The notes under the pieces: model-generated
Told to the model about the DNA's origin: nothing
What the model saw: the letters and a program-made list of their open reading frames with translations, nothing else
Database searches by the model: none
Position numbers and translations under genes: made by a program
Shown: in pieces, positions 5,184 through 52,843 of the stretch
How the letters are laid out: every line of letters begins with the position of its first letter
Numbering within the stretch: position 1 is the stretch's first letter
Assembly: GCF_000219725.1 (NCBI RefSeq)
Contig: NC_015732.1
Coordinates: 310,001 to 374,000 of the forward strand
Length of the DNA stretch: 64,000 nucleotides
Source: Gracilinema caldarium DSM 7334
GTDB lineage: Bacteria > Spirochaetota > Spirochaetia > Treponematales > Breznakiellaceae
Reading direction: 5' to 3'

Positions 5184-6674
5184 ATGGATCCGGCTTTTTC
5201 TATTATTACCGATAAAACTTTGACCTACCAGCAGAAGGTCGCTGGCCTTGCCCGGGTAGGCGAAGCTACCATCAATCCGCTCAACATATCAAAGGAAATA
5301 GAAGCCTACCGCGATGCGGGGGTTATCTGCGATTTGAACGAAGGCTCAGCCCCCTACCGGCCCCGCTATGTGGTTCCCGACTACCGTCGCTATATGGAGC
5401 AGGGCTCTGTGTTTTTAGGGGTGAAACCCCCGCGGGATATCTGGGAAGCCACGGCAGCCCTGCTTATCCTGTACCGCCACGTGCCCAGTATTACCACGTT
5501 TCCGGTGTATCTTGGCGATATCGACAGCCTTTTGGAGCCCTTTGTCCGTTCCGAAGATGAAGCCCGCAAGGCTATTGGGCTATTCCTCCTGCAGATTGAC
5601 AGAACCATCAACGACTCATTCTGCCATGCCGATATCGGCCCCGACGAGACCGTCGCAGGGCGGCTTATCCTGGAACTGAGCCGGGAGCAAAAAAATGCGG
5701 TGCCGAACCTTTCCCTTAAGCTTGATCCCCAGCGGACCAGCGAAGCCTTCCTGCTCAAGGCCTGCGAGACCGCCCTTGAAGTGGCAAAGCCCAGTTTTGC
5801 AAACCATCCACTCTTTACCGAAGAGTTTAAAGCCCTGGGCTTTGATGATTATGCCATTGCAAGCTGTTACAATGGTCTTCCTGTCGGGGGCGGCTCCTGT
5901 ACCCTGGTGCGGATGAATCTGGCCCGCCTGGCCCCCCTGGCGAAGGACTTGGACCATTTCTTAAACCAGCTTCTCCCCGATGCGGTGCAGAACCAGCTTG
6001 CGTATATGGATGAACGGGTCCGTTTCCTCCTAGAGGAGTCGAACTTTTTCGATTCCAGTTTTCTTGTGGAAGAAGGCCTTATTCATCGGGACCGATTTAC
6101 CGCCATGTTTGGCATCGTAGGTCTCGCTGAATGCGTGAACCGGTTCTCCCCATCGGGCCGCTTTGGCCACGCTGAGGCCGCCGATGCTCTGGGCCTCGAT
6201 ATTATCGACCGGATCAGCCGGCAGGTAGGGGCTCACACCAATTCCCTCCTTGCGGCCGCCCAGGGCCGGTACCTGCTCCATGCCCAGGTGGGGATCGATT
6301 CTGACCAGGGGGTCAGTCCCGGCTGCCGCATCCCCATCGGAGAAGAGCCTGAGCTGAGCGACCATATCCTTCGGTCTGCACCGTTCCATACATATTTCCC
6401 CAGCGGCATCGGCGATGTCTTCGCCTTTGAGCCCACGGTAAAAACCAATCCCGCCCACCTTATGGATATAGTCCGGGGTGCCATGAAAAGCGGACTTCGT
6501 TACTTTAGTGCCTATGCAGCCGATGCGGATGTGGTGCGCATCACGGGTTATCTGGTAAAACGTTCCGAAATTGAACGGCTCAACCAGGGCAAGGCTTCTC
6601 TGCAGGACACTACCGCCCTGGGGCGGAACGCAGTTAATAATCTGGGGGTCCTGGAGCGGCGGCTTCGGTCTTAG
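5184..6674 (+). CDS. yjjI: YjjI-family glycyl-radical enzyme
   Basis: This 496-residue protein is a DUF3029/YjjI-type glycyl-radical enzyme. The glycyl-radical motif near the C-terminus reads RITGYLVKR, with the predicted radical at Gly455. A cysteine-bearing loop (ASCYNGLPVGGGSCTLVR) is the likely thiyl-radical region. The ATG at 5184 is chosen because AGGAGG at 5171-5176 lies 7 nt upstream; an in-frame start at 5154 lacks this. The activase gene follows after 8 bp. The substrate of YjjI enzymes was unknown to my knowledge, although enterobacterial homologues lie near deoxynucleoside catabolism genes. No such neighbours occur here. The protein needs anaerobic conditions to keep its radical. 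Confidence 0.85.
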   Translation: MDPAFSIITDKTLTYQQKVAGLARVGEATINPLNISKEIEAYRDAGVICDLNEGSAPYRPRYVVPDYRRYMEQGSVFLGVKPPRDIWEATAALLILYRHVPSITTFPVYLGDIDSLLEPFVRSEDEARKAIGLFLLQIDRTINDSFCHADIGPDETVAGRLILELSREQKNAVPNLSLKLDPQRTSEAFLLKACETALEVAKPSFANHPLFTEEFKALGFDDYAIASCYNGLPVGGGSCTLVRMNLARLAPLAKDLDHFLNQLLPDAVQNQLAYMDERVRFLLEESNFFDSSFLVEEGLIHRDRFTAMFGIVGLAECVNRFSPSGRFGHAEAADALGLDIIDRISRQVGAHTNSLLAAAQGRYLLHAQVGIDSDQGVSPGCRIPIGEEPELSDHILRSAPFHTYFPSGIGDVFAFEPTVKTNPAHLMDIVRGAMKSGLRYFSAYAADADVVRITGYLVKRSEIERLNQGKASLQDTTALGRNAVNNLGVLERRLRS

Positions 6675-6682
6675 GTTGTTTT

Positions 6683-7528
6683 ATGGATGAACCCTTAGGT
6701 TTGGTGGCAAAAATCCTCCCTTCCAGTGCCGTGGACGGTCCGGGGAATCGTTCCGTGGTGTTTCTCCAGGGCTGTGATTTTGACTGCAAGTATTGCCATA
6801 ACCCGGAAACGAGGAAGGCCTGTATTCACTGCGGGCGCTGTATCCCCGCTTGCCCCGCGGGAGCCCTCTCCCTGGATGCGGGCCAGGTGGTCTGGGATAG
6901 AACTCGCTGTACCGACTGCGGAACCTGCATCACCCTGTGCCCCCATTCAGCATCGCCAAAAACGCGCCTCATTTCTGTTGGGGCTGTCCTGAACGTAATC
7001 CGCCCCTACCTGCCTTTTATCCGGGGGCTCACTGTTTCTGGCGGTGAGTGCGGCCTGCAGGCGCCATTCATGACAGCCCTTGTTCGCCGCGCCCGAGAGG
7101 TTCATCAACTTGGAACGCTTATTGATACCAATGGATCCACCGATTACAGTCAGCTCCCGGAACTGGTAGAAATGGCAGAGGGTTTTATGCTCGATGTCAA
7201 AGCCTGGGACGCTGTGGAACACGCTGGTCTTACCGGCGCTCCGAATGCTGTTGTGTTGCAGAATCTGGTGTACTTAGCCAGGCTCGACAAGCTCTATGAA
7301 GTGCGGACCGTGGTAGTTCCCGGTCAGTTTAATGCGGAAGAGACGGTTCGCGAAGTGAGCCGGGTCCTTGTTGCTGCTCAGAGCAGAGCTCGTTATAAGA
7401 TTATTGGCTTCCGTCCCCAGGGTGTTCGACCGCAGTTCCGGAACATGTCTCAGCCGGAACGGTCCTTTTTGGAACAGCTTGCTTTCCTAGCACGGTCAGC
7501 GGGTGTACGAAACATTCTTGTGGTATAA
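6683..7528 (+). CDS. yjjW: YjjW-family glycyl-radical enzyme activase
   Basis: This 281-residue radical-SAM protein has the cluster motif CDFDCKYC near residue 30. It is followed by an inserted two-cluster ferredoxin domain with CIHCGRCIPACP and CTDCGTCITLCP (residues about 49-90), then TVSGGECGLQ and LIDTNGST of the barrel. This layout is that of activases that abstract a hydrogen from the glycine of the partner enzyme using S-adenosylmethionine. Gene order and 8-bp spacing match yjjI upstream, so it should activate that protein. It is followed by a 101-bp promoter region for an unrelated operon. Confidence 0.9.
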   Translation: MDEPLGLVAKILPSSAVDGPGNRSVVFLQGCDFDCKYCHNPETRKACIHCGRCIPACPAGALSLDAGQVVWDRTRCTDCGTCITLCPHSASPKTRLISVGAVLNVIRPYLPFIRGLTVSGGECGLQAPFMTALVRRAREVHQLGTLIDTNGSTDYSQLPELVEMAEGFMLDVKAWDAVEHAGLTGAPNAVVLQNLVYLARLDKLYEVRTVVVPGQFNAEETVREVSRVLVAAQSRARYKIIGFRPQGVRPQFRNMSQPERSFLEQLAFLARSAGVRNILVV

Positions 7529-7629: not shown

Positions 7630-10287
7630 ATGCATAATGATGTGAAACGATCATGGTTTATTATCATTGGTCTGTCGCTTATAACAGCGATATTTGGTTT
7701 TTTTATTCCTAAAATCATTCTTGATAATGAGGTAAAAATATATTTTCCTCATAATCATCCGTCCTATATTAACCATATTAATCTTGAAGAGATTTATGGA
7801 AGCCAGATCTTTTTAGTAGTTTCAATTAACAATCCCAATGGGTCGATTATCAATGCAAAGGCTATTGAACGAATCCGAGATTTAACGAATGAGTTTGAGA
7901 AATTAGATGGTGTCGTTAAAGTACAATCCATAGCTAATGTGGATTATGTGACAGGAAGTCCTTCGGGTGGACTTGTATCAGAAAATTTATTACCTGATGA
8001 TTTTTCAGGTTCTGATGCTGATCTTGTTCGCTTACGGGAACGTATATCCGATTGGTCTTCCATGTATAGCAGGATCATTTTATCAGAAGATGGTAGTGGT
8101 TCGGAAATTGTTTTAACCGTTGATCACAATATCAGTGCAGACAAAATGAGTGAATTGTATCGAACTGTGCGTGGTATTGTTGATAAGTATAAACATGATG
8201 AATTCGATTATCGAGTTGCGGGTGATCCTGTACTGGCTCAGATGGCTCGAGATTATATGTTATCTGATCTTAGTCGGCTGGTTCCTGCGGTTGTGATAGT
8301 AGTGTTATTAACACTGCTGTTTTCATTTAAAACTCTTGAAGGGACCTTGCTTCCATTAATAACAGTAGTGTTTAGTACCGTTTGGACTGTTGGTATCATG
8401 GCTGTATTAGGTATTCATTTTACCGTTGTATCCAGCTGTCTGCCTGTTCTGTTAATTGCTGTTGGTTCCGCATACGGTATTCATGTGGTAAACCACTATT
8501 ATGAAGAACTTGCCCATGATTTTGCAGATGCAACAATCAATAGGGAATTGCATGCCCAATTAGTTAAAAAATCTTTAAAGAAAGTTGTTTTGCCTGTTGT
8601 TTTAGCCGGTGTAACTACAATTGTTGGGTTCTTCTCAACGGTTACGAGCCCAATAGTTCCATTAAAGACCTTTGCAATATTTAGCTCTATTGGTGTAACC
8701 TTCGCATTAATTCTTTCTCTCTTGCTTATTCCTGCCTTTCTTATAGTTAAACCACTTCCGAAAGATGGGAAATTGAATATAAAAACTTCTCATCGTAAGA
8801 ATTATGAAAAAGGTATTGATTCAACAAACCTTGGTGTTCGTAGTGCTGCTAAGTTAAATAATGTCTTACATGATCACGCGGTAACTGTAGGTGTAGTTAT
8901 TGGCTTTATAATAGTAGTTTCTATATGGGGTATGACAAAAATCAATGTAGAATCTGCTTTGTTAAGTTATTTTCCAAAGACATCACAGCTACGGCAGGAT
9001 GTAGAATTTATAGATCATAATTTTGCCGGTAGTAATTTAATGAGTATTGTTATTCATGGAAAGGAAAAAGGCGATTTAACAGATCCAATAGTGTTAAAAG
9101 CTATGGATGATCTAACTAATTATATTCACATTCATCATCCAATTGTTGGTAAAACAATCTCATACACCGATTTTATTCGTCGGATGAATAAAATTATGAA
9201 TGCTCCTCAAAGTGAATCTGAAGAAAGCATTGGTTCCAATGATAGTGCAGTTATTTCTGGAGATAGCTTTTTTGCCGATTCAAGTTTTGTTGATGAAAAT
9301 GTTCCATCGTCAAATACTGTTGTAGGTACAAAAATAAATAATGAAAGTTCTTCCTTAATGAAATTACAAGAGCCAACAACGCTTGAAGACATGTTAGCCT
9401 TGTTACGAAAAGCCTATGCCCTTTCTGGTTCAAAGCCAACAGTCGAAAGTATGCTTGCAGAAATGGAAAAGCTGGTTAATTACAAAGGTGCTGCTTATGA
9501 TGAAATCCCTGTAGATCCAGAAAAATATCCTGTAAGTAGTAAAGAAGAATTAAAAAACCTGATAGCCCAGTATCTTGTTTTGTATTCAGGGTCTCTTGAT
9601 GAATATTCCGATGATCAGTTATCACCCTCTGCAGCTCGGATGGCGGTACAATTCAGAACACACAATACGAGCGAGGTAGAACGGGTAATTAAAGATCTTA
9701 AAGGGTGGGCAAAAAAGAATCTTCCTGAGGGTTATTCACTTGAAACTTCAGGTATTGCTGAAATGGAAGTTTCTCTCACCTCAATGATAACCTCCAGTCA
9801 GCTAAGCAGTTTATTACTCGCAATTTTAAGTGTATTCATCATCCTGGCGATTTCCTTTAAATCACCATTAGCAGGTCTTATTGGTTCATTACCATTATCA
9901 ATTTCAATATTAATTAATTTCGGAATTATGGGATTTTTAGGGATCAATTTGGATATGGTTACCAGTCTCATTAGTTCTATCGCTATTGGAATTGGTGTCG
10001 ATTACACTATTCATTTTATGAATAATTATCATCATGAACGATTGCAATCTGATGATTTGAAAAAGGTAACGTTTAATACCTATATGGTTTCTGGAAAAGC
10101 TATCCTCATTAACGCTGGTTCAGTCGCGCTTGGTTTCCTTGTTCTTTGTTTCTCTGAGTTTGTAGTGCTTCGTTATATTGGATTCTTAGTTGCTGTCGTT
10201 ATGGTTACAAGTTCGGTAACCGCGCTTACGGTTCTTCCTCTTATTTTAAATTTGGTAAAACCAAAATTTATTTCTCGCCAGTTCTAG
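7630..10287 (+). CDS. RND/MMPL-family exporter
   Basis: The 885-residue inner-membrane protein has the duplicated RND layout. TM1 is near residues 9-28 and is followed by a large extracytoplasmic loop. TM2-6 span about 216-375, TM7 is about 416-437, a second loop runs to about 705, and TM8-12 span about 713-880. The conserved TM segments contain GSAYGIHVVNHY and, in the second half, SIAIGIGVDYTIHFMNNYHHE, matching COG1033 exporters (MMPL type). Such pumps move lipids or other hydrophobic molecules using the proton gradient. It is the first gene of a three-gene operon with a periplasmic LolA-like carrier and an outer-membrane barrel. Codon use is clearly more AT-rich than yjjIW or the GH94 gene. 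The substrate cannot be read from sequence. Confidence 0.85.
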   Translation: MHNDVKRSWFIIIGLSLITAIFGFFIPKIILDNEVKIYFPHNHPSYINHINLEEIYGSQIFLVVSINNPNGSIINAKAIERIRDLTNEFEKLDGVVKVQSIANVDYVTGSPSGGLVSENLLPDDFSGSDADLVRLRERISDWSSMYSRIILSEDGSGSEIVLTVDHNISADKMSELYRTVRGIVDKYKHDEFDYRVAGDPVLAQMARDYMLSDLSRLVPAVVIVVLLTLLFSFKTLEGTLLPLITVVFSTVWTVGIMAVLGIHFTVVSSCLPVLLIAVGSAYGIHVVNHYYEELAHDFADATINRELHAQLVKKSLKKVVLPVVLAGVTTIVGFFSTVTSPIVPLKTFAIFSSIGVTFALILSLLLIPAFLIVKPLPKDGKLNIKTSHRKNYEKGIDSTNLGVRSAAKLNNVLHDHAVTVGVVIGFIIVVSIWGMTKINVESALLSYFPKTSQLRQDVEFIDHNFAGSNLMSIVIHGKEKGDLTDPIVLKAMDDLTNYIHIHHPIVGKTISYTDFIRRMNKIMNAPQSESEESIGSNDSAVISGDSFFADSSFVDENVPSSNTVVGTKINNESSSLMKLQEPTTLEDMLALLRKAYALSGSKPTVESMLAEMEKLVNYKGAAYDEIPVDPEKYPVSSKEELKNLIAQYLVLYSGSLDEYSDDQLSPSAARMAVQFRTHNTSEVERVIKDLKGWAKKNLPEGYSLETSGIAEMEVSLTSMITSSQLSSLLLAILSVFIILAISFKSPLAGLIGSLPLSISILINFGIMGFLGINLDMVTSLISSIAIGIGVDYTIHFMNNYHHERLQSDDLKKVTFNTYMVSGKAILINAGSVALGFLVLCFSEFVVLRYIGFLVAVVMVTSSVTALTVLPLILNLVKPKFISRQF

Positions 10288-50405: not shown

Positions 50406-50466
50406 GTAATGTTTTGGCTTCTTAATGATTGTTATAAAGCCTTTTATATGTATTGTATTTTATATA

Positions 50467-50496
50467 TTGACAATATGTTTATTAATATATATTAAT
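50467..50496 (+). promoter_or_regulatory. Promoter and palindrome of the small ferredoxin gene
   Basis: TTGACA (50467-50472), 17 nt, TATTAA (50490-50495). ATTAATATATATTAAT (50481-50496) is a perfect 16-bp palindrome covering the -10 box. The AT-rich symmetry may be an operator. Confidence 0.55.
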
Positions 50497-50535
50497 ATAG
50501 ATATATATAAGGCCGGTATAGAAGGAGTAACAACC

Positions 50536-50718
50536 ATGAATGTAAAAGTAGAACCCCATCGCTGTCCTCAGAACCATCCCTGCCCGGTGGTTCGGGTATG
50601 TCCCATCGGAGCCATAAAACAGAGGGGTTACGCAGCACCTGAAATTGATAAGTCAAAATGCATTAACTGCGGTCGCTGTATAAGATATTGCGGCTATGGA
50701 GCAATTCGCAGCGCATGA
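50536..50718 (+). CDS. Small 4Fe-4S ferredoxin-like protein
   Basis: A 60-residue protein with CINCGRCIRYCGYGAI in the second half, a complete CxxCxxCxxxC cluster motif. The first half reads CPQNHPCPVVRVCPIGAI, with Cys at 10, 16 and 22, an irregular first motif. It could bind one or two 4Fe-4S clusters as a small cytoplasmic electron carrier or sensor. GAAGGAG lies 9 nt before ATG 50536; the open frame upstream of this lies in the promoter. It stands alone with its own promoter; the partner is unknown. Confidence 0.85.
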   Translation: MNVKVEPHRCPQNHPCPVVRVCPIGAIKQRGYAAPEIDKSKCINCGRCIRYCGYGAIRSA

Positions 50719-50756: not shown

Positions 50757-51320
50757 TCAGAATAGGAGACTTAGTCCGAAGGCTGACCAACCTGAAACGG
50801 CGAATGTTCCGGCGATAATCAGTAAAAGCCTATATCGGTTACGGGATTGTTCCAGCCGTTTCAGTTCCTGTTCTGCTGCTGTCTTGTAATTGTTGAAGGA
50901 TTGTTCCAAGCTCTGCAAGGAGTCTTCCGTTTTCTGTAAGGAGTCCTTCAGCTGTTTCGATTCCTGCAGTGATGTTGTTACATTCAGTCTGAGCTCGATC
51001 AAGCTGCTTTGCAAGGCTTTCAGTTCTGCCTGCAGCTGTTCGAGCTCTGTTTTCGAGGCCTTCAGCCTGTTCTCTAATTCGGATGAGTTCTTCCTGGAGT
51101 TTTCCAGCTCGTTCTTGAGCCGTTCGTTGAGCCTGCCGAGCTGCATCGAGATCTCGGTAAGCCGTAAGAGCTCGTTCTCGTAATAGTTGTCGGTCTGATT
51201 CGGTTCTTCGCCAAAGGATAAAGCCGGTGACCAAAGCACCCACAACAAAGCCCATAAGAAAAACGCCAAAGAGAATTTTCCCGTTTTGAATATCTTGAAC
51301 CATCTTGAATAAACCCGCAT
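50757..51320 (-). CDS. Coiled-coil protein, frame A (signal peptide and C-terminal TM)
   Basis: This 187-residue frame has a basic N-terminus and a hydrophobic stretch (FSLAFFLWALLWVLWSPALS), then a long coiled coil (about 45-160, ENELLRLTEISMQLGRLN onward). A clear C-terminal TM segment follows (RLLLIIAGTFAVSGWSAFG). It would be a periplasmic coiled coil held in the inner membrane. It overlaps, on the same strand, a second frame (50839-51303) that also looks like a membrane-anchored coiled coil. No strong ribosome binding site precedes either start. Layout resembles coiled-coil hypotheticals of treponemes, as I remember them. Function unknown. Confidence 0.6.
   Translation of the reverse strand: MRVYSRWFKIFKTGKFSLAFFLWALLWVLWSPALSFGEEPNQTDNYYENELLRLTEISMQLGRLNERLKNELENSRKNSSELENRLKASKTELEQLQAELKALQSSLIELRLNVTTSLQESKQLKDSLQKTEDSLQSLEQSFNNYKTAAEQELKRLEQSRNRYRLLLIIAGTFAVSGWSAFGLSLLF
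50839..51303 (-). CDS. Coiled-coil protein, frame B (N-terminal TM), nested in frame A
   Basis: A 154-residue frame, wholly nested in frame A and shifted by one base. It has a Gly-rich N-terminal TM helix (LFGVFLMGFVVGALVTGFIL) followed by WRR and an Ala/Arg/Glu/Gln-rich helix (ARQAQRTAQERAGKLQEEL). A rough hand count gives a higher share of codons starting with G than frame A over the same DNA, which favours coding in this frame. Either one frame is a lucky shadow, or both are translated, or a frameshift joins them. Start codon ATG 51303 has no clear ribosome binding site. Function unknown. Confidence 0.45.
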   Translation of the reverse strand: MVQDIQNGKILFGVFLMGFVVGALVTGFILWRRTESDRQLLRERALTAYRDLDAARQAQRTAQERAGKLQEELIRIREQAEGLENRARTAAGRTESLAKQLDRAQTECNNITAGIETAEGLLTENGRLLAELGTILQQLQDSSRTGTETAGTIP

Positions 51321-51508
51321 AGAAATTAATTAATTTTACAATGACATATCAAAATTGATGAGTACCTTAATAAAAAATCGAAGAGTACTTTTATAAAATA
51401 TTATTATTTATTATAAACTCTTTGTAGATTTGTGATTTTAATCATGAATTGCGTTACTATTATAAGTATCGTTTTTATGTATTCTTTGTATTCAGGGCAG
51501 GGGGATAT

Positions 51509-52843
51509 ATGGGTGGAGTTGGTTGTTATAAGAAATCAACCTTGATTGTTGTTGTTTCTGTGCTTGCATTTTCCTGCAGTACCTTTCAGACCAATCAGTT
51601 TATACAAAATAACTTATCACAGGAAGAGAAAGCTGAAATTATCTTTCAAAAAGGTTTGCAGCTTTATAATACCCGGCTTGTTGAGCAAAACGATATAACC
51701 GCAATTCCGGAGGTTCGCAGTTATTTTGTTGCCGCCCTCCGGGCAGATCCAGAACATCTGAAAGCTCAGGAATATCTTATAAAAACGGATACCTTCAAGA
51801 CAAAGCGCTTTGAGGAATATCTTGCTAGAGCGAAAGCTTTATATGAGAAAAATAACAGGACCGATATTGAAGATTATGAAATGATTGTTGCAATTAAACA
51901 TGCTCAGGAAATTGATAGTTCTAATAATGATATTAATAAGTTACGGTCTGATACGGGAGATGTACGGAAACAAGTACTTCAGCGTCGTATACAGCACCTT
52001 ACAGAACTGGAACAAGCTATTCGGAAATCAAAAACAAAAATAGAATTACATAAACAATTAGGTGTTGCTGTTCGGATCATGAAAGAAATTACTACAATAG
52101 ATGCTTCAAATAAAGATGCCCTAACAATAAGGAAATCTATAGATGGCTATGTAACATCAGTTGTTTTAGCAGATACCAACGATGCAACTAATAAATTAAA
52201 GCAAAAAAAATATCAGGATGCAGAATTAGCTCTCATTAATGCTGAAAAAACTTATGGCGCCTTACAAAAGACGCCTTTACCTGAGTTGAGTAAGACAAAA
52301 TATCAACTCTATTTTTCCTGGGCGGAGAGCTTATATGCGGAAAAAAAATACCAGGCTGCAGAAGTTCGAATCAATACAGCATTACAGGTGGAAAAAAACC
52401 CGGAAGCTGTAGAACTGAAAAACAAGATCGCCAAAGGGACGGGCACTGTTACTACAACCACCACTAAACCAGCCGCCTCAGGTAAAACAAAAACAGCGGT
52501 TCCCCAACGGGATTATGATGCTGAATTACCGGATCTCTTAGTGATTATCGATGCTACTATAGAAAAAGGGAATCTCGTGAAAGCATGGGATCTGGTAAAT
52601 ACCAATATGATTCAGCTTAAAATGCAGAGTAATAAAACTAAGTTGGCGTCCCGAAAAACGGTAATCCTGGAAAAGGTAAAAGAACTATATGAAGATTCAG
52701 TGGTGGCATTTAACAGTGAAGATTATGAGACTGCGCGGGATGGTTTTAGAACAATAGTCCGTATCAATCCGGGATATGAGCAGGCCCAGGCCTATCTGGA
52801 TAGGGCAAATACGAAATTACGGGTCCTTTCCGGCAATGATTAG
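51509..52843 (+). CDS. Lipoprotein with TPR-like helical repeats
   Basis: The 444-residue product has a lipoprotein signal: VVVSVLAFSC, with the lipobox Cys followed by STFQTNQ. The rest is alpha-helical, with repeat-like segments resembling tetratricopeptides, such as YFVAALRADPEHLKAQEYL, YFSWAESLYAEKKYQAAEVR and AFNSEDYETARDGFRTIVRI. A Thr/Lys-rich linker lies near residue 330-350. ATG 51509 follows AGGGGG; a longer frame begins at 51449 but would bury the signal. It lies 10 bp before the nucleotide cyclase gene, so it may tether or regulate it. No enzymatic motif seen. Confidence 0.7.
   Translation: MGGVGCYKKSTLIVVVSVLAFSCSTFQTNQFIQNNLSQEEKAEIIFQKGLQLYNTRLVEQNDITAIPEVRSYFVAALRADPEHLKAQEYLIKTDTFKTKRFEEYLARAKALYEKNNRTDIEDYEMIVAIKHAQEIDSSNNDINKLRSDTGDVRKQVLQRRIQHLTELEQAIRKSKTKIELHKQLGVAVRIMKEITTIDASNKDALTIRKSIDGYVTSVVLADTNDATNKLKQKKYQDAELALINAEKTYGALQKTPLPELSKTKYQLYFSWAESLYAEKKYQAAEVRINTALQVEKNPEAVELKNKIAKGTGTVTTTTTKPAASGKTKTAVPQRDYDAELPDLLVIIDATIEKGNLVKAWDLVNTNMIQLKMQSNKTKLASRKTVILEKVKELYEDSVVAFNSEDYETARDGFRTIVRINPGYEQAQAYLDRANTKLRVLSGND

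Follow-up and report, generated by a model that had tools for sequence, protein, structure and literature searches.

A same-strand, dual-coded pair of predicted membrane-anchored coiled-coil proteins in Treponematales chromosomes and prophages, with a probable spanin-like role

In the 64-kb stretch of Gracilinema caldarium DNA analyzed in this work, referred to as the window, two long frames are open on the same strand and over the same bases, which raises the question of whether both encode proteins and, if so, what such a pair would do. An earlier note, made from the sequence alone, described these frames, termed A and B, as nested and of 187 and 154 residues, and both were found exactly as noted, on the minus strand (Table 1). 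They have 465 bases in common that are read in two frames, with A being the +1 frame of B. Frame B starts 17 nt downstream of the A start and ends 82 nt short of the A end, and the third frame of the locus contains 8 stops. This is the sole same-strand, out-of-frame pair in the window for which both members have at least 120 amino acids and overlap by at least 80%. Codons starting with G had been reported to be commoner in frame B, and a recount agreed, giving 58 of 154 (38%) for B versus 44 of 187 (24%) for A and 21 of 93 (23%) for the first half of A. When the amino acids of A were kept fixed and its own synonymous codons were shuffled, frame B was open in about 0.1% of the permutations. A promoter and terminator scan returned sites no more numerous than in shuffled sequences.

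Table 1. Features of the A/B locus and its flanks (positions in the window)
Feature	Position	Strand	Description
Gene A (frame A)	50757..51320	minus	187 aa, ATG; ORF
Gene B (frame B)	50839..51303	minus	154 aa, ATG; ORF wholly inside A
Start region	51301..51320	minus	A ATG at 51318-51320, B ATG at 51301-51303
A-only tail	50757..50838	minus	Internal single-coding control for the third-position comparison
Double-coding hydrophobic stretch	51219..51276	minus	Predicted A signal core and B TM in two frames; hydropathy scan
A C-terminal TM	50772..50828	minus	Predicted, residues 165-183, past the end of B; hydropathy scan
4Fe-4S protein	50425..50718	plus	Convergent to A/B; Pfam Fer4, 1.1e-07; context only
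TPR-like protein	51449..52843	plus	Divergent from A/B; weak Pfam TPR-type matches; context only

Searched for separately as single sequences, A and B each had matches in 7 of 58 related genomes, and these seven were identical for both. A profile search of 390 genomes of the order (E ≤ 0.001) retrieved A in 24 genomes and B in 28; strong matches (E < 1e-10) were obtained for A in 17 genomes, 16 of which also had a strong match for B. In the one genome missing for B, G488, the 5' part is gone from A and B alike. Its relic copy, located near Era- and ThrH-like genes (L083, about 6570 to 6800), keeps only the 3' ends of both; it is therefore a truncated chromosomal copy, in which neither frame has outlived the other. 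In-frame stops flagged in A and B of G037 reflect a match that runs a few codons beyond the real stop, as seen from the match coordinates. The situation that the earlier note had named as speaking against dual coding, with one frame conserved and the other broken, was sought but not seen among these relatives, the damage in G488 having hit both frames. Each frame is conserved along the overlap, in the case of B almost as far as its own stop.

Substitution patterns make it almost certain that A and B are both ORFs under protein-level selection, so that two proteins would be made from one stretch of DNA. Between the window and G003, A-codon positions 1, 2, and 3 were changed at 23 of 149, 33 of 149, and 43 of 150 sites of the overlap, respectively, and third positions of the A-only tail at 20 of 27 (overlap contrast, P = 1e-5). 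Third-position changes in the overlap and the tail amounted to 51/151 and 18/27 for the window and G002 (P = 0.001), to 0/139 and 5/43 for G207 and G307 (P = 6e-4), and to 14/152 and 4/32 for G546 and G604 (P = 0.38, not significant). Of the six pairs compared, five had a P value below 0.05 for this contrast (1e-5, 0.001, 0.04, 0.03, and 6e-4); as the pairs have sequences in common, these do not represent five independent tests. For comparison, three flanking single genes differ between the window and G003 at 14 to 25%, 3 to 15%, and 53 to 57% of positions 1, 2, and 3, respectively. In the comparison of substitutions across relatives, which the earlier note had proposed as a check, third positions of A are constrained in the overlap and free in the A-only tail.

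The same conclusion was reached with a null model in which the G003 protein was randomly back-translated with the codon usage of the neighboring genes (2000 draws). This comparison left out the first 26 or so residues, which contain gaps, and assumes saturated synonymous sites; flanking fourfold sites differ by 62 to 66% between the window and G003, which is near saturation. Under selection on A only, the identity of B would average 29%, with a maximum of 41%, and frame B would gain 12 stops on average, whereas the observed identity of B is 72%. Under selection on B only, the identity of A would average 27%, with a maximum of 37%, versus 74% observed. The corresponding values for the window and G002 were 62.5% for B, with 30% expected, and 68% for A, with 25% expected. 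Site-class rates for the window and G003, which are noisy per class, were 0.22 for NN, not below the 0.23 for SN and 0.19 for NS.

An alternative is that A alone is a gene and that B is open merely through the composition of a coiled-coil gene. Alternative frames of coiled-coil genes tend to be open, as is generally known, and the permutation P values for frame openness at individual loci are modest, ranging from 0.001 to 0.48. However, their combination over 12 loci, treated as independent although they are so only roughly, yields a P value of 9e-8, and the excess of B identity over the null, the restriction of the third-position constraint to the overlap, and the independent matching of B in the same genomes all argue against this explanation, to which we assign a very small probability. 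The earlier note had also considered a single frameshifted gene with its N terminus in B and its C terminus in A, which might arise by programmed frameshifting from B to A or from a sequencing error. The complementary position of the membrane segments, at the N terminus of B and the C terminus of A, would fit such a gene, but A has a start and a signal of its own, close to or upstream of the B start, B is conserved to near its own stop, and both frames are intact in all 32 catalogued loci described below; this proposal is hardly credible. Chance ORF and frameshifted gene were both rejected on the third-position contrast, the intact frames, and the identities relative to the null.

The catalogue comprises 32 intact loci, with start codons picked by eye among the candidates. 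In every one of them A is the +1 frame of B and both frames are uninterrupted from their own starts; at least 94% of B lies inside A in 31 loci, and 83% in L024. Edge copies (L059, L068, and L071) and the relic (L060/L083) were kept outside this set. A first set of weak A matches contained 16 loci besides G000, G037, and G040; 8 had the partner frame, the partner was not recognizable in 5 (L022, L025, and L027 to L029), and L017, L018, and L030, matches within ORFs of more than 2000 amino acids, were left out. The A search of the 390 genomes added the weak matches L061 to L064, with no recognizable partner, while L065 to L067 were left out, and of 12 weak matches in the B search, A is present with the 7 located in short ORFs and absent from the 5 in long ORFs. 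Weak matches inside unrelated ORFs had no recognizable partner (five in the first A set and five in the B search). The 15 weak loci (8 plus 7) were kept for having a partner and are therefore a biased sample for frame openness; the strong A matches are unbiased.

The two starts are often nearly coincident. Relative to the A start, that of B is offset by -4 in 9 of the 32 loci, which have the motif NTGxATG, and by +2 in another 8, which have RTGTG; in 22 loci the offset is within 8 nt. Many members of the two motif groups have AGGAG-like bases just upstream. Overlapping NTGxATG starts in two frames occur in L054, L069, L109, L113, L115, L117, and L119, several of them behind one AGGAG-like sequence. 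This closeness and the bases upstream suggest that one ribosome site may serve both starts. The window copy, at an offset of +17, has no good Shine-Dalgarno sequence for A.

As to the predicted proteins, the architecture proposed in the earlier note, in which A has a signal-like N terminus and a C-terminal TM segment and B an N-terminal TM segment followed by a long helix, is borne out by prediction. A hydropathy scan placed the hydrophobic core of the A signal at residues 16 to 34, the C-terminal segment of A at residues 165 to 183, and the TM of B at residues 10 to 28; the signal core of A and the TM of B are encoded by the same bases with the frame shifted by one. AlphaFold2 predicted for each protein a single unbroken helix of 144 residues, spanning residues 43 to 186 in A (mean pLDDT 84, pTM 0.36) and 3 to 146 in B (mean pLDDT 83, pTM 0.33), which at 1.5 Å per residue corresponds to rods of about 21 nm each. 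Pfam matches of both were to generic coiled-coil families and below the family cutoffs. No lipobox was found, as A of the window contains no cysteine and no cysteine is conserved in the copies checked; single copies (L070, L006, and L023) have a cysteine near the signal end, at positions not common to them.

Pairs homologous by sequence occur in prophages, where several have genes for an endolysin, a holin, or Mu-type packaging next to them. Eight of the 32 loci were placed in prophages from their scanned neighbors (L035 by close likeness), and in five of these the pair adjoins endolysin, holin, or Mu-like packaging genes. The neighbors in L032 and L034 include a holin (phrog_1129; 8e-4 and 3e-4) and Mu gp27 (7e-14 and 1e-11), together with a terminase and a Mu portal (7e-60 and 7e-63), and L035 has the same gene order, with a scanned holin (0.0016) and packaging genes assigned by likeness. 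In L037, an M15 peptidase (PF13539; 1.1e-18) is followed by a small TM ORF with no family match and then by B/A; L123 has a C39-like peptidase (5.5e-7) and Mu gp27 (4.6e-13), and in L128 an amidase endolysin (phrog_9611; 4.5e-41) is located directly upstream of the pair. L081 carries a tail fiber J gene (9e-67), and its pair (L069) was matched by the A profile of the near set (4e-19); L074 carries a major tail protein gene (2e-7), and L122 and L124 are similar in look, their family scan being uninformative. Profile-profile comparison of a Treponematales set (two prophage copies and 14 loci taken to be chromosomal) with a Mu-like phage set gave, for A, 98% probability with an E value of 6e-15 over nearly the full length and, for B, 93% with an E value of 4e-7; the cross-control of A versus B reached 1.6%. 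Given that both frames are open, that both are conserved as proteins, and that relatives of the pair reside in prophage lysis cassettes, the true dual coding suggested in the earlier note stands.

The earlier note also likened the pair to nested spanin genes, and here position and layout agree, whereas the lipoprotein that defines an o-spanin is lacking. Spanins are defined, in the survey by Kongari et al. (2018; PMC6139136), by a lipoprotein o-spanin or a u-spanin, and embedded, overlapped, and separated layouts are described there, with about 70% of embedded o-spanins starting at 0.4 to 0.5 of the i-spanin. By prediction, B has the features of an i-spanin, that is, an N-terminal TM followed by a helical domain, and it adjoins or overlaps a partner in an alternative frame in all 32 loci. 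The position in a holin/endolysin cassette, where phages of diderm hosts carry their outer-membrane-breaking spanins, is found wholly or partly in L032, L034, L037, L123, and L128, and not at the window copy. As A has no lipobox cysteine, it does not qualify as an o-spanin, and the pair is not classed as a spanin. A strict lipoprotein o-spanin was ruled out for A by the lack of a conserved cysteine. A unimolecular spanin requires a lipoylation signal and a C-terminal TM, of which A has only the latter.

Compared with Rz/Rz1 of lambda and gp23/23a of Mu, B likewise combines an N-terminal TM with a long periplasmic-type helix, the partner is encoded on the same DNA in the +1 frame (A relative to B, Rz1 relative to Rz), and the prophage copies are in lysis-cassette position, with weak Rz-like profile matches of B. 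These matches, to phrog_312 (1.6e-4 for L020 and 0.011 for the window), are not specific, since a neighboring TM-coil protein in L032 scores 2.6e-5. In Mu, the spanin genes 23 and 23a lie between the lysozyme gene and gene 27, which fits the position of A/B in the Mu-like prophages. In contrast to Rz/Rz1, A is a nonlipoprotein with a C-terminal TM, B is nested in A whereas in spanins the o-spanin is nested in the i-spanin, and the window copy is chromosomal. Unlike most of the embedded spanins covered in PMC6139136, A and B overlap almost totally from the start codon on. Gp11 of T1 resembles A in its export signal, helix, and C-terminal TM, but, according to the same source, it has an N-terminal lipoylation signal; it also acts alone, whereas in A the cysteine is missing and a partner is present. 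Another parallel is type 10 secretion of Yersinia entomophaga, in which, as reported in PMC10847048, a holin-endolysin-spanin cassette is employed by the host; it is likewise a lysis module outside a prophage, but the window pair has no adjacent holin or endolysin. Relative to the known layouts, a TM-helix partner nested in a signal-bearing one, with no conserved lipoprotein cysteine, appears to be new. In the open-access literature on spanins, spirochete prophages, dual coding, and domesticated lysis cassettes, as far as it was covered and with subscription papers outside this coverage, no description of such a pair was found.

Taken together, A/B is probably a spanin-like, nonlipoprotein pair common to phages and chromosomes, with a spanin-like origin and role, and we infer that it acts in the manner of Rz/Rz1, the two-component spanins. 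B would be the inner membrane rod, equivalent to an i-spanin, and A the partner exported through Sec by its signal sequence. The rod of A, equal in length to that of B, would form a coiled coil with it; this structure would cross the periplasm and, at the final stage of phage lysis, disrupt or bridge the outer membrane. Because A has no lipid anchor, the hydrophobic helix at its C terminus would need either to take over the role of such an anchor or to keep the C-terminal end of A next to B in the inner membrane. In parallel pairing, the hydrophobic end of A would be at the outer membrane; in antiparallel pairing, both TMs would be in the inner membrane and two free tips at the outer membrane, which is favored by the normal stop-transfer behavior of such a segment. 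More tentatively, and with somewhat less than an even chance of being correct, the pair may represent a separate spirochete/phage class of lipoprotein-free, spanin-like lysis pairs that now also resides in chromosomes and serves the host. Such a class would be characterized by equal-length rods, almost fully superposed genes, and two nearly coincident starts, in many cases of the form RTGTG or NTGxATG and frequently preceded by a single Shine-Dalgarno-like sequence.

The window copy itself has no lysis genes beside it, the nearest genes being those of the 4Fe-4S and TPR proteins. The order of TRAP transporter, A/B, TPR protein, and cyclase is kept in four genomes of the genus, including G001, G002, and G003, and most copies in the taxonomic order were read as chromosomal, elsewhere near Era, ThrH, and RecN (by eye, mostly unscanned). 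The G. caldarium genome has one A/B copy and no match to Terminase_6C; Portal_Mu had no match in it, nor in any control genome meant to show one, so that the Portal_Mu result is uninformative. The single chromosomal copy, the constant flanks in the genus, and the lack of a Terminase_6C match suggest an orphan lysis-type pair, either domesticated or ancestral. These same observations, namely ordinary neighbors for most copies, flanks shared by G001, G002, and G003, and no Terminase_6C match, would also suit a real dual-coded pair that forms a host envelope rod or scaffold unrelated to lysis, with the phage copies being secondary captures. This is unlikely, as the pair is found beside endolysin, holin, or Mu-like packaging genes in several unrelated prophages, and its patchy presence in 24 of 390 genomes would be unusual for a core structural protein. 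The spanin-like pair being the preferred reading, we infer that the window copy is phage-derived, resident in the chromosome, and kept for an envelope role, such as controlled lysis or release or envelope remodeling. Phages may also have captured the pair from the chromosome.

It is rare for two structured membrane proteins, both under selection and present across a bacterial class, to be encoded on the same strand with nearly complete overlap, and A/B offers a clean example from nature of how far dual coding can go. The pair is also a testable candidate for the breakage of the outer membrane by spirochete phages. In PMC6139136, 91 of the 677 surveyed phages of Gram-negative hosts are reported to have no identifiable spanin, and the main text of a paper on 38 Treponema prophages (PMC11144348) does not contain the words lysis, holin, endolysin, or spanin. 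From each such pair, one gene will be overlooked by gene callers that avoid long overlaps.

Further genes of the prophage loci may be mentioned. L032 and L034 encode a second TM and coiled-coil protein after A/B (5357-5731 and 8843-9205; weak Rz-like matches of 2.6e-5 and 3.6e-4, respectively). Near the holin and on the opposite strand, both also carry a lipoprotein-like ORF whose signal ends in AGC (6649-7359 in L032 and 10549-11199 in L034); it could be a moron or an unrecognized envelope lysis factor. Among viral contigs, searches with A of the window, the near set, the Mu-like A set, and A of L119 returned nothing, and tblastn against 50,697 phage records gave no match for A of the window, L072, L109, and L113 or for B of L072. 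The Mu-like B profile matched the viral contig L072, in which neighboring B-like and A-like genes overlap by about 140 nt and adjoin a GH108 endolysin; this match covers 67 residues and is a suggestive parallel only. Two further contigs match A of L072. Upstream of the L072 pair, an ORF at 416-1516 resembles the reverse transcriptase of a diversity-generating retroelement.
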